From: Saxidomus purpurata
Taxonomy: Eukaryota > Mollusca > Bivalvia > Venerida > Veneridae
Assembly (NCBI GenBank): GCA_022818135.1
Contig: JAFMSR010000018.1
Coordinates: 17,908,595 to 17,972,594 of the forward strand
Reading direction: 5' to 3'
DNA length: 64,000 bases
The notes beneath the pieces are model-generated. The model saw only the letters and a program-made list of their open reading frames with translations, had not been told where the DNA came from and searched no databases. This document shows, in pieces, positions 4,613-59,866 of this stretch (the first letter of the stretch is position 1; the number at the start of each line of letters is the position of its first letter). The position numbers were made by a program, and so were the translations under genes.

Positions 4613-5752
4613 AGAAAGCAAAATGGCTGCTTTGGTTATCCCGAACGCTAGACGACCCAGACAATTTCGTAGAATTGATAGACAGACGGACGATTTAGAC
4701 GACAATGAACTGCGAAGACGGTACGGTTCGGTGCAGCCAACTTGGATAGACTGGTGACATTGCTTGGTGACAGACTACAGCGACGACACAACGGAACAAC
4801 CCACTGACACCGAGACAACGATAATGATTGCCCTTCGTTTCTATGCCTCCGGGGCTTTCTCCAACTGATAGGGGATACTTTGGCGTTGATATTGCCACTG
4901 TGTCCAGAACTGTGACTCGTGTGACCGACGTACTTTTTGATCTAAAGGACGAGTTCATCAAATTTCCAACGACTGACAACCAGAGACTGGCTGTAAAACG
5001 TGGGTTTTACACGATGCGTGGCTTTCCAGGCGTTGTCGGTTGTATAGATGGCACGCATGTACGTATCATTGCCCCTGTAAAGGCAGAGGAGCGAGCATAT
5101 GTCAACCGCAAAATGGTTCATTCAATAAATGTGCAAGCTACTTGCGATCATCTTGGTAAGTCGTCTTTGTTTTTCTTTTAGAGTTACTCCCCTTCATGAC
5201 ATATTTAAAGGTCAAGGTAGGGAGGCTACCTTGGGAGAACTTTAGTTTTAAAACGAAATAAGGACTTTGTTTGCTATAAACTGATCATAAAGTTCGTTTA
5301 TGAAGTTAACGAGATTTGTTGTTGGATTACCATTTATAAGTATGCATTTGTAAACCGTTAAAGTGTAATTAAATTTAAAAACAGTGTAACACTCTTTAAC
5401 AGTGTCCAACACTTTTTGAACAAGCTTCAAGCTTTTATCTAACAGTGCTGTATTCTAATATACAGGAAAGTTCACAAGTATAAACGCATCGTAGCCAGGC
5501 AGCTGTCATGACAGCCATGTGTTCAGGGTGTCCAACTTGTGCCACTATTTGGAAACCCATCATCAAGGTAAGCTCTATTATAACTTTACAATATTAATAA
5601 TAATAAATATAGCTTTATGGATTTTTTAACCAATGTCATGTGTTTCGAAAGTTCTGGCTACTTTATAGTCAGTTGAAAAATTCAAATAAGATCACAGACT
5701 TCTATACACACCGGTGATTTTGTTATATATGCTAATTTCAGAGGAGTAAAAT

Positions 5753-7870: not shown

Positions 7871-8639
7871 ATTCTTTTATGAAAGAAAAAGATGTATAGA
7901 AATATTTGTCCATTGATAAATTTGATATGTTTTAAAATGTTTTGTGTGTATATTAAATATTTAATGAATTTTCAGTAACTGTTATTATTTCTTTTTCTGT
8001 TTTATACACAAAAATGTTTTTGAATCCCTCTTGTGTTGTGAATGGAAAAATTACAACTTCCAACTTTATCTAGAAAAATCTTTACCATAAAGTAAGAAAC
8101 ATCTGGGCTGACATCAATGATAACAAACTATGAAGGAAATAGGGGTCAAGTCCTGATAATAATAACATCTCCAGCAGAGGTGCTAATAGCCGATACTGTT
8201 ACCTTCTCCAGGAGAATTTCATAGAATTCTGTCATTTTACTACATAGTGCATTGCCAAGTATGTGGTGATTGTTTTTAAATCATGTTGAAATTATGTAAA
8301 GAAGATTAAGTCTTATTAAAAAAGAAAAATATTGATCTCAGTTATATTTGCAAGTCTGATGTATCTGCATTGTAAATGACTATTTGCCATCCATACACAT
8401 CTACATGCAAACTGATACATTATGTACATGTTTTTTTAATTTCATTTCTAGATTTAGACAAAGGTGTCTTGCTTGGGGACAGTGGGTACCCTTGCAGACC
8501 CTTTTTGTTGACGCCCTACCCTAATGTTTTAAATGAAAGACAGGAGAGATACAACAGAAGACAAATGGGAACAAGAAATATCATTGAAAGGGTTTTTGGT
8601 ATGTGGAAGAGGAAATTCCATGTTCTACATTCAGAGGTA

Positions 8640-9275
8640 ATAAATACTGAAATATTACAAAATATATCTTATAAATTGTTGATTGATATAAATAAAATTG
8701 CTGCATATTATGTACATTTCCATTTCATGTTATAAAACATGATGACATGATAATCCTTGTGTTCTTAAAGAAATTGGATAAAATTTTAATGCATTTACAC
8801 AGTTGTTGTCTTGAAAACCATATTGCACATTTCATTGGGAAATTAATGCAGACAGGAAAATACTTTTTTTTACCTGTTTTACCTTGCATGATATGTTCAT
8901 GTTATTGACTGTTGATCATCAGTGTCTGGTGATTTACATGTACATTTTAATCAAGCTTTTGTAAAATTTTATTTTATATAATTTATGTTATTAAATTTAC
9001 TGTACTTATGGAAAGTAAATTAATCATAATATATAGAGATATAACATATTAATACAAATATCAATCTGATCTCATAAAAGTATGCATGACATGTATAACA
9101 ATATACCAAGTATAACTGTAATTGGATAGCTGAGTTTTTGTCACCTTTTACAAGTACATGTACTATAATGATTGTGTACTTTTTTTGGACACTGGCAACT
9201 TCTTTAAATTAAAAACAATTGTAAGACAAATTTCATAATCCAATATTAGTACATGTATATTATTGTAAATTTCAG
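8640..9275 (+). other. Intron 3 of the transposase relic
   Basis: AT-rich sequence between donor CAGAG|GTAATA and acceptor ATTTCAG|ATCAGG. I see no further repeat or exon in it. Confidence 0.5.
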
Positions 9276-16925: not shown

Positions 16926-17397
16926 TGCATACAGAATCATGTTTTTTGTTATAACTTTGGTAATTTTCATGAACCAGCGATAATTTTACTTGAAATTATG
17001 ATTGCCATTTTGAGCGGCATAATAGCACTTCGATATCTTTAGTTACAGGTGATAGACCACTTCTACCAGGACTCTTAAAACATTGAAAATATGTAATAGC
17101 CAAGACGTTTATCTCTTTTTGTATTAAATTTTCAAAGTTTTAACAATGATTTATTTAAGAAAGCATATTCAAACAGAATCATGTTTTGTTATAACCTTGG
17201 TAACTAATAAACCTGTTATAAATTTCTTTGAACTGTGATTGTCAATAGCACTTTGATATCTTGCTTAATTACATGTGACAGACCACTTCTACCAGGACTC
17301 TTAAACCATTGAAAATGATATAATAGCCAAGACGTTTAATCTTTTTTCGTATTAAAATTTCAAAGTTTAACAATGATTTATTTAAGAAAGCATATTA
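16926..17397. repeat. Tandem duplication, two ~235-bp copies
   Basis: Copy 1 (16926-17166) and copy 2 (17169-17397) share CAGAATCATGTTTT, ACCACTTCTACCAGGACTCT, AATAGCCAAGACGTTTA and AACAATGATTTATTTAAGAA, with scattered substitutions and small indels. It ends about 360 bp upstream of the stem-loop gene's ATG. Confidence 0.85.
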
Positions 17398-17498
17398 ATA
17401 CCATAAATTTGTATCTCCTTTGATGTAACCGGCGCTAAATGGTTTCGCAGTGACCGGCTTCTACTCAAACCGCGCAGGCGCGATAAAGAGTGTTGGCA

Positions 17499-17672: not shown

Positions 17673-17679
17673 TATAAAA
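17673..17679 (+). promoter_or_regulatory. TATA box of the stem-loop gene
   Basis: TATAAAA lies 81 bp upstream of the ATG at 17760, which predicts a start near 17700 and a short leader of about 55-60 nt. This geometry is typical of replication-dependent histone genes. Confidence 0.6.
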
Positions 17680-17759
17680 CGTCAATGTATATTCTTTCAA
17701 GAGCATATCCGTTTCAGATTTTAAAACAATTACACGTTATTATATCTCCAACAAATACA

Positions 17760-18089
17760 ATGGCTGAGGGCGACCATCAGAAGTTCTCTATTCGAGACTT
17801 ACAGGGAAAACTACTCCGCGCCGAGAACCAGTTCCAGAAAGCATGCAACCAGATCGTCCTGATGAACTCAAAACTCCGAGATTGCAACATCCGCTACAGA
17901 AGAGCCAGATCGAACAACCTGAAGTCCTTCCGGTATCCTCTACGCCTGCGCCTCGCTGTCGTTGAAGGGGTAAGGAACATGTACTACGACTATGCCACGA
18001 AAAAAGCACATGAGGTCGAGCATCTTCGAAGCATAATTGCAAATGTTGTTGCTTCTGTAATCACAATAGATTCAGAGGAAGAATTATGA
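17760..18089 (+). CDS. 109-aa intronless protein of unknown function with a histone-type mRNA 3' end
   Basis: I do not recognise a named family. ATG at 17760 has a strong context (ACAATGG) and follows a TATA box; an in-frame ATG at 17685 lies too close to the predicted start site. Codons are GC-richer than the flanks, which supports real coding. Residues 10-50 (SIRDLQGKLLRAENQFQKAC, then LRDCNIRYRRAR) look like one long basic helix. FRYPLRLRLAVVEG (57-70) forms a conserved-looking turn, VRNMYYDYATKKAHEVEHLR (71-90) a second helix, and the tail ends IDSEEEL. There are 19 Lys/Arg against 13 Asp/Glu, and no signal peptide or membrane segment. It lacks the histone-fold motifs of H2A, H2B, H3 or H4 and the winged helix of H1. 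A histone stem-loop lies 28 nt after the stop, so the mRNA is predicted to be S-phase regulated and poly(A)-minus. I have an unverified impression of similar short proteins with an LRLRL...EGVRN core in other bivalves. Confidence 0.75.
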   Translation: MAEGDHQKFSIRDLQGKLLRAENQFQKACNQIVLMNSKLRDCNIRYRRARSNNLKSFRYPLRLRLAVVEGVRNMYYDYATKKAHEVEHLRSIIANVVASVITIDSEEEL

Positions 18090-18117
18090 GTTCTGCTTGA
18101 AAACTCCAAACCACAAA

Positions 18118-18133
18118 GGCCCTTTTCAGGGCC
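18118..18133 (+). promoter_or_regulatory. Histone mRNA 3' stem-loop (SLBP-binding type)
   Basis: GGCCCTTTTCAGGGCC forms a 6-bp stem (GGCCCU/AGGGCC) with a UUUC loop, exactly the metazoan form GGYYYU-NNNN-ARRRCC. CACAAA precedes it and ACACAAA follows, as flanks of histone stem-loops do. In histone mRNAs SLBP binds this hairpin, and cleavage occurs about five nt downstream, expected here near 18138. Confidence 0.88.
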
Positions 18134-18145
18134 ACACAAATATTC

Positions 18146-18151
18146 GAAAGA
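18146..18151 (+). promoter_or_regulatory. Histone downstream element-like GAAAGA
   Basis: CGAAAGA lies 12 nt after the stem-loop, where the purine-rich histone downstream element pairs with U7 snRNA. The position and core fit, though the surroundings are less purine-rich than sea urchin or vertebrate examples. Confidence 0.65.
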
Positions 18152-18367
18152 TACCTCTCAATATTGTCATATAAAATGTTGTTCGAGAACCACACATCCA
18201 CACATTATTAATATATGTTTCGTGTTTTGCTACTCAAAAGCGTTTTTGAGTATTCGTTTTAATTAAATATCAGATCTTGTTTGTGTCTCATATATCATAT
18301 AACTGTTGCCGTTTTTTCCTCTCTTTTAAATATTCCAAAATATTATTTTTATTATATTTGAAGTCTT

Positions 18368-18373
18368 AATAAA
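18368..18373 (+). terminator. Backup polyadenylation signal AATAAA
   Basis: AATAAA lies 279 nt past the stop of the stem-loop gene, with ATTAAA at 18262. It could yield a polyadenylated read-through form, as many histone genes do, or be chance in AT-rich DNA. Confidence 0.35.
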
Positions 18374-18719
18374 TTTCAATGCGAGGCTTTTTCAGTGAGA
18401 TCTGTTTTCAAAGTGAGAGATAAGATGGGTTTAGAATTATAAAGAACAGTTCAATGTCTTTCATTTTATTGTGGAAAGTCTATTTTTTAGCAGTATCATG
18501 TCTAGTGCCCATTAGATAACAATTACGTCACAGTGACATAACAAGCAATATGACGTATAACCTGAAAAATTGTCATAGACTTTTCGATTTGGTTCTTTAA
18601 AGTGTCAGATAACACATAAATTTTGTCTCAACACATTGCAATAGATGAATCTAACAGTGAAAAAATAATTGGATAGAACTGTGACATATTTTTGCAAAGA
18701 TTAATCTCTAAAATGATTT

Positions 18720-18885
18720 CAAGCAAATTTGATATACTAACAATGGTGTAAAACGAAATTGGATATAGTGCCAGTGGTGTAAATCGAAAATGCATATAGT
18801 CAATGGTGTAAAAACGAAAATGGATATAGTGACAATGGTGCAAAACGAAAGTGTAAAAAAGAAACGTTGCCATGGTTTGCTAGTG
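18720..18885. repeat. 31-bp minisatellite, block 1
   Basis: About four diverged units of AAAACGAAAATGGATATAGT plus GACAATGGTGT end in GAAACGTTGCCATGG. The block abuts a SINE. It matches block 2 at 19284-19480, including the shared AAGAAA(C/T)GTTGCCATG end. Confidence 0.8.
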
Positions 18886-18892
18886 GTTCGTG

Positions 18893-19137
18893 GAGCCGAC
18901 GTGGCGCATTGGTAGCGTGTTCGCCTCAAGATCGAAGGGCCTCGGGTTCGATCCTTACCATAGCCATGTTGGTAGTGTCCTTAGGCAAGACACAAATAAT
19001 TCCACATTGCCTCTCTCTTCGAGGTTGACTCCGTCTGGAATGAGTCTCGAGAGCAATTGACCAGACGCCAGGTGTCAATGAAGTGACTTCATTACCTATC
19101 AATATTCGACTTTACCTACGACAAATAAATGCACGTG
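18893..19137 (+). mobile_element. tRNA-derived SINE (family with GAGTCTCGAGAGCAAT body)
   Basis: Head: TGGCGCATTGGTAGCGTGTT (A box) and GGGTTCGATCC (B box). Body: TCCTTAGGCAAGACAC, CACATTGCCTCTCTC, GGTTGACTCC and GAGTCTCGAGAGCAATTGA, then an ACAAATAAATGCACG tail. Related copies lie at 34740 and 57762, with minus-strand heads at 12388 and 21953. Confidence 0.75.
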
Positions 19138-19283
19138 GAAAAGGTTTGAATGGATTCTTTTGTTATAAATAATCCGACAACAACAAAGGGGTGGGGTTAT
19201 AGCACCATTGGCGTCATGTCAATTAATCTAAGTTGTAAGAACTTGTTTCGCAATCGAGAATAAATAAATTAGTATATATATAT

Positions 19284-19480
19284 TAACGAAATTGGATATA
19301 GTGACAATGGTGTAAAACGAAAATGGATATATAGACACTGGTGTAAAACGAAAATGGATATAGTGACAATGGTGTAAAACGAAAATGGATATAGTGACAC
19401 TGGTGCAAAACGAAAATGGATACAGTGACAAAGGTGCATAACGAAAATGTCAAAAAGAAATGTTGCCATGATTTGCAAGT
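19284..19480. repeat. 31-bp minisatellite, block 2
   Basis: Five units of ACGAAAATGGATATAGTGAC plus AATGGTGTAAA are followed by AAGAAATGTTGCCATGATTT. It is a second copy of block 1, more homogeneous, separated from it by the SINE and about 150 bp. Confidence 0.85.
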
Positions 19481-44021: not shown

Positions 44022-45409
44022 TTATGAAATGATGCGGATGGCCTGAGATGGTTCTTGTCGACAAACTGGACAGATTCTGTCCACTGTACCTGTTGGCTTC
44101 TCAACGATCAGACTTGCACATTCCATACAAAAGAAATTATGTCCACATGGAACGAGTGCTGCGACAACTTCACTTTCTGAGCACATGATACAGTTCCTGC
44201 GCGCACCTAAACCCGAATCGCCAGAAGCACTCAACGTGCTTGCTTCAGCACTGGTAGTATTAACATTTATTCCATTAACAACATTTGTGTCAAGTCCGCC
44301 ACTGCTGGTGCATGTGATTCCAGACACAGCCGGAAACAGCTCACTCTGCAGAGTAACAAACGGAGTAAAAGCACTAGCAATAGGGTCGCTGCGTATCCTG
44401 CGTGATGAGGGTGGCTCCGAGGGAGGTGAATGAGATGTTGAATTTGTACCCGTTGCGCTCGACCCGGTAGACATTTCACTAGAAGTTGGCGATATTCTTG
44501 GGATTCCACTCAGCCCAGAACCAATGGCATTCATGTTTGTTGTACTTGTTGTTCCAAACATAGAGACTAGGTTAGGATTTCTGTTGTCGTTAACTTCTGA
44601 CCACACACCAGCGGGAACAGCTGTATCAAACGAAGGAGAACCGATACCTTCGTCAGTTAAACCATCATAAATGTTCGGAAAACCATTGAAAGTGGAACCA
44701 AAACCATTCACTTGGCCATTAAAGTCCGAAATTTTCGATGTGCCATTGACTGGAGGGAAGTTAAACACAGTTTCTGGTCCCCTGTTCATTAATCCAGTTC
44801 CATTGAGAGCATTGTTATATGCTGTAAATGCAGACATCCCATTGGGTGATTTATTGAATATAGAACTAATATAGTCACTACTAGATCCATTGAGTTCGTG
44901 AAATCCGGAGTCGATTCCGTTGCGATGAAAATCATCATCTGGAGAGTTGTCCACTATACCTCCTGTCCGAAGAGCGATGTGGCTCTCTATCTCTTGCCTT
45001 GCCTTTTCAACATTCTCTGGAAGACCCGTCACCTCAAACACAGGCTCTTTGTCTCTGCTAGGGGTAACGATGTATGTGTGGGTCTGTTGCTGAATACGCT
45101 TAATTGTTGCACCTTTGGGTCCGACAACAAGGCCAACAACTCTGTATGGAACTCGCACCTGTATCGTCACCTGACCAGGTGCATTTGGACTTGGCGGGCC
45201 TGACAACCCATTGCTCGAGATACTTGTGACACTGGAGTTCCTGCGTGATGCCCTGATCTGACTGAAGTGCTCAGCAGCTGATAATATTTCCCTTTTCGCC
45301 AGCACGACATCGTCCTTACGTCCTGTGACCACAAACACTGGTTCTTCACCTCTTACTGGGGTCTTAATGTAGGTGTTGGTCTTTGCTCTAAGGGCTTTAA
45401 TTTTGCATC
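44022..45409 (-). CDS. mex3: MEX3 RNA-binding protein, exon 2 (rest of KH1, KH2, RING)
   Basis: Exon 2 encodes residues 84-545 and the stop. It opens after acceptor TTTCAG|GATGC (exon from 45409) and continues KH1 as CKIKALRAKTNTYIKTP to about residue 130. KH2 (about 162-230) has the GPKG loop at 180-183. A low-complexity Ser/Asn/Gly linker follows. The C3HC4 RING finger uses Cys490, 493, 505, His507, Cys511, 514, 530 and 533. The protein ends QAIRIIS, close to the IRIFS end of vertebrate MEX3, so it is full length. MEX3 proteins bind specific mRNA motifs through the KH pair, controlling translation and stability in germline, stem cells and early fate decisions; the RING can act as a ubiquitin ligase. 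There is one clear reading frame and no break. The paralogue (A-D) cannot be assigned, since that split is vertebrate-specific. Confidence 0.97.
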
Positions 45410-59521: not shown

Positions 59522-59866
59522 AACCTCGGCGGCGGGTGGTCGGGTTGTTAACGCTCTGGACTACCAGTCCGGATGTCCTCGGTTCGAATCCCGACCGGGG
59601 CACTAGAAATTCCAGAAATGCTTTTAAATGTTTTCTACCCATCTAGAGATCTACCATCTACCCAGAGGTAGTCTCACGTGTCCAGTGCTATACACCGGGC
59701 ACGAAAGGAACCAAGGGGTCTATTCGTTTAAGACCTAGGGTCATGTACCCGGATTCCCTCGTATCTGTGTCTTTCTTCAACCTGCGCCTGTCAGGAGTCT
59801 TGGCAAGTCTTGGCAAATTCACCCAGGGACATGTTCCAGGGTCGGCCGGGACTGTAAACAATAAAA
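59522..59866 (+). mobile_element. Complete tRNA-derived SINE, ~345 bp
   Basis: The head folds as a tRNA-like molecule: acceptor CCTCGG pairs with CCGGGG, GGTGGTCGGGTTGTTAACGC holds the A box, CTGGA-CTACCAG-TCCGG forms an anticodon-like arm, and TCGGTTCGAATCCCGA is the T arm with the B box. The body (CACCGGGCACGAAAGGAACC, GACCTAGGGTCATGTACCCG, CTTCAACCTGCGCCTGTCAG, CAGGGTCGGCCGGGACTG) matches the copy at 3.1 kb and ends in ACAATAAAAAAAG. A free-standing tRNA gene is unlikely because the shared body follows. Confidence 0.8.

Follow-up and report, generated by a model that had tools for sequence, protein, structure and literature searches.

A bivalve gene family for a non-histone protein with a histone-type mRNA 3' end

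Can a gene that encodes no histone carry the complete message ending that has been regarded as reserved for histones in animals? Core histone mRNA has been called the only known animal case of a stem-loop end in the accessible part of one source (PMC6303110), and in histone genes a module of this kind is described as being read by SLBP and the U7 snRNP (available sections of PMC1924863 and PMC5011920). The question was raised by one gene in a 64-kb window of the Saxidomus purpurata genome (the window being the whole stretch of 64,000 nt that was analysed), where a sequence-only reading had placed an ORF, a stem-loop and a GAAAGA motif, all of which were recovered at exactly the positions it gave. 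We consider it probable that the window gene is a member of a bivalve non-histone family using the replication-dependent histone mRNA pathway. The gene and its 3' side contain the following features.

17673..17678, + strand: TATAAA, candidate TATA box 87 nt 5' of the ATG, proposed from position only
17760..18089, + strand: intronless ORF encoding 109 aa and closed by TGA; the family to which it belongs has no Pfam match
18118..18133, + strand: histone-type stem-loop GGCCCT-TTTC-AGGGCC, that is GGCCCTTTTCAGGGCC, from Rfam match and sequence scan
18145..18151, + strand: CGAAAGA, histone downstream element (HDE) and candidate U7 site, at the same place as CGAAAGA in the H1 and H4 genes of the same genome
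18164..18169, + strand: TTGTCA, third downstream element, present in histone genes and family genes alike, from sequence comparison
18262..18267, + strand: ATTAAA, possible back-up poly(A) signal, from sequence scan
18368..18373, + strand: AATAAA, possible back-up poly(A) signal, from sequence scan

The ORF runs from the ATG at 17760 to the TGA at 18087-18089 by sequence scan, and the coding region has no introns, as the whole protein is covered by a single ORF here and likewise in relatives. A second in-frame ATG upstream, at 17685, would give 134 aa; this start is disfavoured, since the relatives P0001 and P0002 begin at the residue of 17760 and the TATAAA lies at 17673. Immediately 5' of the gene, a direct repeat with two copies about 227 nt apart occupies 17039-17401.

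The stem-loop GGCCCTTTTCAGGGCC occurs once on the + strand of the window, 28 nt after the stop, and GAAAGA (18146-18151) follows the stem by 12 nt. Rfam family RF00032 (Histone3) matched 18113-18158 on the + strand with 39.2 bits and an E value of 5.4e-8, the sole gathering-level Rfam match within the window. With a 6-bp stem, a 4-nt loop, A-rich flanks, proximity to the stop and a purine-rich HDE, the gene has the 3' sequence traits of the histone-type mRNA class.

The histone genes of the same genome provided the nearest standard of comparison. The PF00125 profile gave at least 121 histone matches, with 150 of 170 candidates scored; most of them lie within repeats whose lengths are about 5.5 and 6 kb, and RF00032 gave ten matches at seven histone loci with 35.5-38.2 bits. 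The H1, H3 and H4 genes have the same kind of ending, composed of stem-loop, purine HDE and TTGTC; in six histone segments the HDE lies 13-14 nt after the stem (CGAAAGA in H1 and H4, AGAGAG in H3) and TTGTC 32-36 nt after it. Among 19 distinct family segments, defined by a score cut-off of 7.7 set after the fact, GAAAG was found within 60 nt in 17 and TTGTC at 26-66 nt in 18, against a TTGTC background of 4.9% per 40 nt. The 3' end of the window gene is 85-86% identical to those of the H4 genes over 66-67 nt (best E 1.4e-15). With the HDE and the TTGTC in common and the 3' end of the window gene so close to those of H4, the family is, on sequence evidence, a user of the module of its own genome's histones and not merely of a similar hairpin; stem-loop, purine-rich element and TTGTCA stand, as read from the letters, in the order and spacing of those histone genes. 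Viewed against animal replication-dependent histone mRNAs (RF00032), the family is alike in its intronless ORF, its tandem arrays, the TTGTC that it has in common with the own histones and, in most copies, a purine-rich element at a distance of 10-14 nt from the stem; it is unlike them in its protein, which is not a histone, and in the HDE of the C2 and C10 paralogues. TTGTC was seen about 29-36 nt past the stem-loop in histone genes (L049, L065) and most family genes, and at 52-56 nt where an extra hairpin is present; TTGTC(A) is a possible third processing or termination element.

The same ending was followed through the paralogues. In the 1.13-Gb genome, 103 family matches were found. By hand count, 78 of the 103 rows, equivalent to about 75 array copies, lie on contigs C1, C1121, C1150, C1647, C2884 and C4006 at a spacing of mostly 1.4-1.6 kb, and the other 25 matches are dispersed. 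GGCCCTTCTCAGAGCC is located 39 nt 3' of the stop in each of the 43 array copies for which the 3' flank could be inspected. In the array copies read (including L037-L040 and L046), stem pair 4 is a C.A mismatch and the loop is TCTC, so that their affinity for SLBP may be lower.

At the dispersed places, a stem-loop follows the stop by 17-45 nt, the range of the family (26-35 nt in the own histone genes), in 17 of 25, a variant hairpin is present in three (C14 twice and C2:14497770) and no stem-loop in five, namely C6:39643574, C12, C15:34694047 with a truncated ORF, the fragment C14:20755380, and C1:54848157, a doubtful match (E 0.38) that was not recovered by the family profile. The sequence-only reading had named homologues without the stem-loop as a finding that would speak against it; such homologues do exist, but they form the minority just counted. 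In the two C14 copies (L033), a TGGCCC-NNNN-GGGTCA hairpin was seen in place of the stem-loop, with HDE and TTGTC retained, and in the C2 and C10 paralogues (L021, L002, L028) an extra hairpin stands between stem-loop and HDE, the latter lying 33-35 nt after the stem. A gathering-level Rfam match was obtained at just three of 20 scanned paralogue loci (L024, L027, L035), the stem-loop calls at the others being based on position, pairing and context. A stem-loop score of at least 8.5, a cut-off set after the fact, was reached by 17 of 27 distinct 3' flanks versus 1.06% of random window pieces.

The stem variants include GGCCCT/AGGGCC, GGTCCT/AGGACC and AGCCCT/AGGGCT. In an alignment of 16 rows, picked for having the stem-loop and excluding the C14 copies, which the aligner had shifted, 95.8% of the cells are paired; pair 1 is GC in 13 rows and AU in three, pair 3 is CG in 11 and UA in five, and pair 4 is unpaired in four. 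The covariation score of this alignment was attained by none of 500 shuffles, and two other measures on the same rows were no better than shuffles (217/500 and 500/500).

Relatives were found in a single-sequence search (21 at E<=1), in a search with a 22-row profile (431 at E<=1, of which the best 120 were listed) and in a search for longer proteins (77 at E<=0.001, overlapping partly with the others). All species names among the relatives listed are bivalves, which agrees with the molluscs to which the sequence-only reading pointed, and six species are named: Mya arenaria, Mactra antiquata, Dreissena polymorpha, Pinctada imbricata, Mizuhopecten yessoensis and Sinanodonta woodiana. The ORFs of some relatives pass the usual stop, or change frame near it, so that the 3' region is translated and the stem-loop can be sought in the protein by a back-translated pattern. 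Of the proteins, 34 extend 52 residues or more past a fixed anchor; the pattern was present at no more than one mismatch in 20 of these, with 13 exact, in various reading frames and always in the tail, in comparison with 0.13% of shuffled tails. The remaining 14 comprise five tails at two mismatches and nine at four or five, the latter being two fused predictions, three ORFs ending in or at a possible stem-loop and four long native-looking tails.

When P0142, P0147 and P0163 were added by hand, after their stem-loop had been seen, 23 of 37 tails were within one mismatch; four other proteins lacking the anchor (P0110, P0124, P0134, P0164) showed no stem-loop. Against the 37 tails, 300 scrambled patterns gave 0.05 matches on average and never more than four, and the reverse-complement pattern gave none at one mismatch and four at two, while none of 20 N-terminal extensions came below three mismatches. 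Residues with purine-type codons (K, R, E) occupy the positions +12 and +15 nt past the stem in 15/17 and 16/17 cases, relative to 32/301 elsewhere, among 18 distinct contexts selected for having the stem-loop. One named carrier is the Pinctada imbricata protein P0140 (one mismatch), and a quick tree, of weak resolution, places the carriers in several branches. Tails and paralogues are mutually related, and their counts are not independent.

As far as sequence can tell, paralogues and distant relatives alike have kept the module, its stem pairs covarying, in a family that has been amplified in tandem. Since relatives and paralogues have the same element at the same place, the stem-loop is more than chance, and the claim of a genuine histone-type 3' end gained support from both groups as well as from the H1, H3 and H4 genes. 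A chance hairpin, or a relic of a copied histone 3' end beside an unrelated ORF, is accordingly scarcely credible: the 85-86% identity to H4 3' ends would allow an ancient copy event, but the element persists at one place, with compensating changes, across paralogues whose proteins share 29-48% identity with that of the window gene, and is also present in relatives.

The protein itself has two features of note.

17811..18029, + strand: conserved helical-hairpin core, residues 18-90, calculated pI 10.3, from alignment and structure model
18057..18086, + strand: C-terminal VITIDSEEEL, SUMO-interaction-like motif, by motif pattern

The protein matched no Pfam family at E<=10, the histone profile included. 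AlphaFold2 predicted two long helices, H11-51 and H55-108 (41 and 54 residues), with a mean pLDDT of 87.9 from 22 sequences and 88.6 from 84, and the models contain neither the short-long-short three-helix histone fold nor winged-helix strands. The view that the protein is not a histone was supported by these results, which include the proposed comparison of its predicted structure with histone folds. That it might be a disguised histone, i.e., a highly diverged core histone, H1 or protamine-like protein retaining its 3' end, is very unlikely; the small basic core, the tandem arrays and the histone 3' end would suit such an origin, but the blank Pfam search, the modelled helices and the acidic tail argue against it.

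The charge of the window protein is split between the basic core and the acidic tail, and several dispersed paralogues have long acidic tails. A SUMO-interaction motif (SIM) consists of a quartet of the V/I-x-V/I-V/I type plus an acidic/Ser run. By this definition, a SIM-like motif is present in 84 of 124 native tails (the window's and 83 others), where 6.1 were expected from shuffles, and is missing from the other 40. The likeness to SIM proteins is one of motif, in that a hydrophobic quartet and then an acidic/serine run lie close to the C terminus, with no family relation claimed, and docking to SUMO is a prediction from sequence. The structure predicted for the family is a hairpin of two helices, in many members with a tail that resembles a SUMO-interaction motif.

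As a hypothesis held with less than even confidence, the protein would be delivered in large amounts along with new histones; the hairpin would self-associate or bind a partner, the basic turn would touch DNA or nucleosomes, and the acidic SIM-like tail would dock on SUMO-modified replication or chromatin proteins. The 'chromatin or replication-linked' role proposed earlier is a guess that the SIM-like acidic tail and the copy number suit.

Histone-type stem-loops are also located elsewhere in this genome. At least 75 RF00032 matches, 72 of them over the cut-off, were found genome-wide, which is a lower bound since 75 of 181,263 first-look candidates were scored. Scores of 40.2 and 37.9 bits recur in many matches, and by hand count 17 pairs are divergently oriented at a distance of 3.8-4.2 kb, for which reasons they look like copies of one element. 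By eye, overlap of RF00032 matches with family or histone places was limited to the window gene and one place on histone contig C749. One element stretch was read (L079 1-4501, at G000:C2:956900-961400) and contains six RF00032 matches, two over the gathering score and four below. Its small ORFs are non-histone ones; among six picked by strand from 13 listed, the stem-loop comes no more than about 50 nt after the stop in five and about 180 nt downstream in the sixth (1340-1789); HDE and TTGTC come after most of these stem-loops (by eye), and one 3' end is 86% identical to those of the own H4 genes over 70 nt. One ORF carries the CHHC zinc finger PF05253 over the Pfam cut-off (E 3.6e-5), and another observation is a SIM-like VIVISSDDED in one ORF. 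Its promoters have, by eye, CCAAT and a GTAGGTCA...GCATAAAAG stretch resembling that of the own H4 gene. This stretch and similar places are probably a dispersed element, and it looks like a mobile or viral one under histone-like control.

Such an element, with six stem-loops among small ORFs in the same genome, invites the reading that a DNA element borrowing histone control was the source of the amplified family, or the model for its spread, and that the signal would serve the element and not host chromatin. We regard this as improbable, as the ORFs of the stretch showed no resemblance to the family profile (best E 1.2) and the family is found in the six named bivalves, mostly in tandem arrays.

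For a bivalve non-histone family on the histone pathway, the course of events would follow histone biology: the stem-loop would be bound by SLBP, the CGAAAGA element would pair with the U7 snRNP, the pre-mRNA would be cleaved a few nt past the stem, and a poly(A)-minus message would be produced in S phase and degraded at the end of replication. Searches of the same genome for SLBP and U7 gave no match; the same searches matched no control genome, and introns may split the SLBP domain. The ATTAAA at 18262 and the AATAAA at 18368 raise the alternative of dual 3' ends, with the stem-loop used in dividing cells and downstream polyadenylation in other tissues, in which case the message would not be strictly poly(A)-minus. 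Replication-dependent histone genes can do so under certain conditions, according to the available part of PMC3661734, and the point on the other side, the conservation of the stem-loop module, is no direct counter-evidence; we rate dual ends as unlikely, yet well worth weighing.

Two human cases come close. A non-histone RNA bound by SLBP was reported by SpyCLIP with histone stem-loop-like structures (PMC6451120), a single CLIP observation for which the accessible text describes no gene family, downstream element or conservation. Non-histone mRNAs have also been scored as poly(A)-minus in humans (PMC3188798), whereas the stem-loop is described in the accessible part of that paper for histone genes only.

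The presence of a complete histone-reserved message ending on a bivalve non-histone family suggests protein production in step with DNA replication, possibly placing in S phase a protein without Pfam match that is made from dozens of genes. Such a family would escape poly(A)-selected RNA-seq, which may be why annotated gene sets contribute few of the relatives listed. Conserved and equipped with the whole module without encoding a histone, the family offers a natural test of what the pathway requires, and the TTGTCA that its genes share with histone genes is a candidate signal for processing or termination. It is conceivable, if somewhat short of an even chance, that the bivalve SLBP/U7 pathway is a general S-phase expression platform, serving a large arrayed non-histone family, whose product would be an abundant, replication-coupled chromatin protein that reads SUMO, and, independently, a dispersed element whose own small genes have the same histone-type 3' ends.

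Several other features were observed in the window. Tandem repeats, partly with 31-nt spacing, occupy 18716-19457, and inside them a tRNA-like stretch near 18895-18965, without an ARAGORN call, may be a SINE (by eye). DDE_Tnp_4 transposase fragments (Pfam) at 4843-5181 and 8376-8735 are presumably PIF/Harbinger-like. An ORF of 271 aa with a RING finger (zf-C3HC4_3) lies at 44022-44837 on the - strand, and a tRNA-Gly (acc) at 59529-59603 on the + strand.
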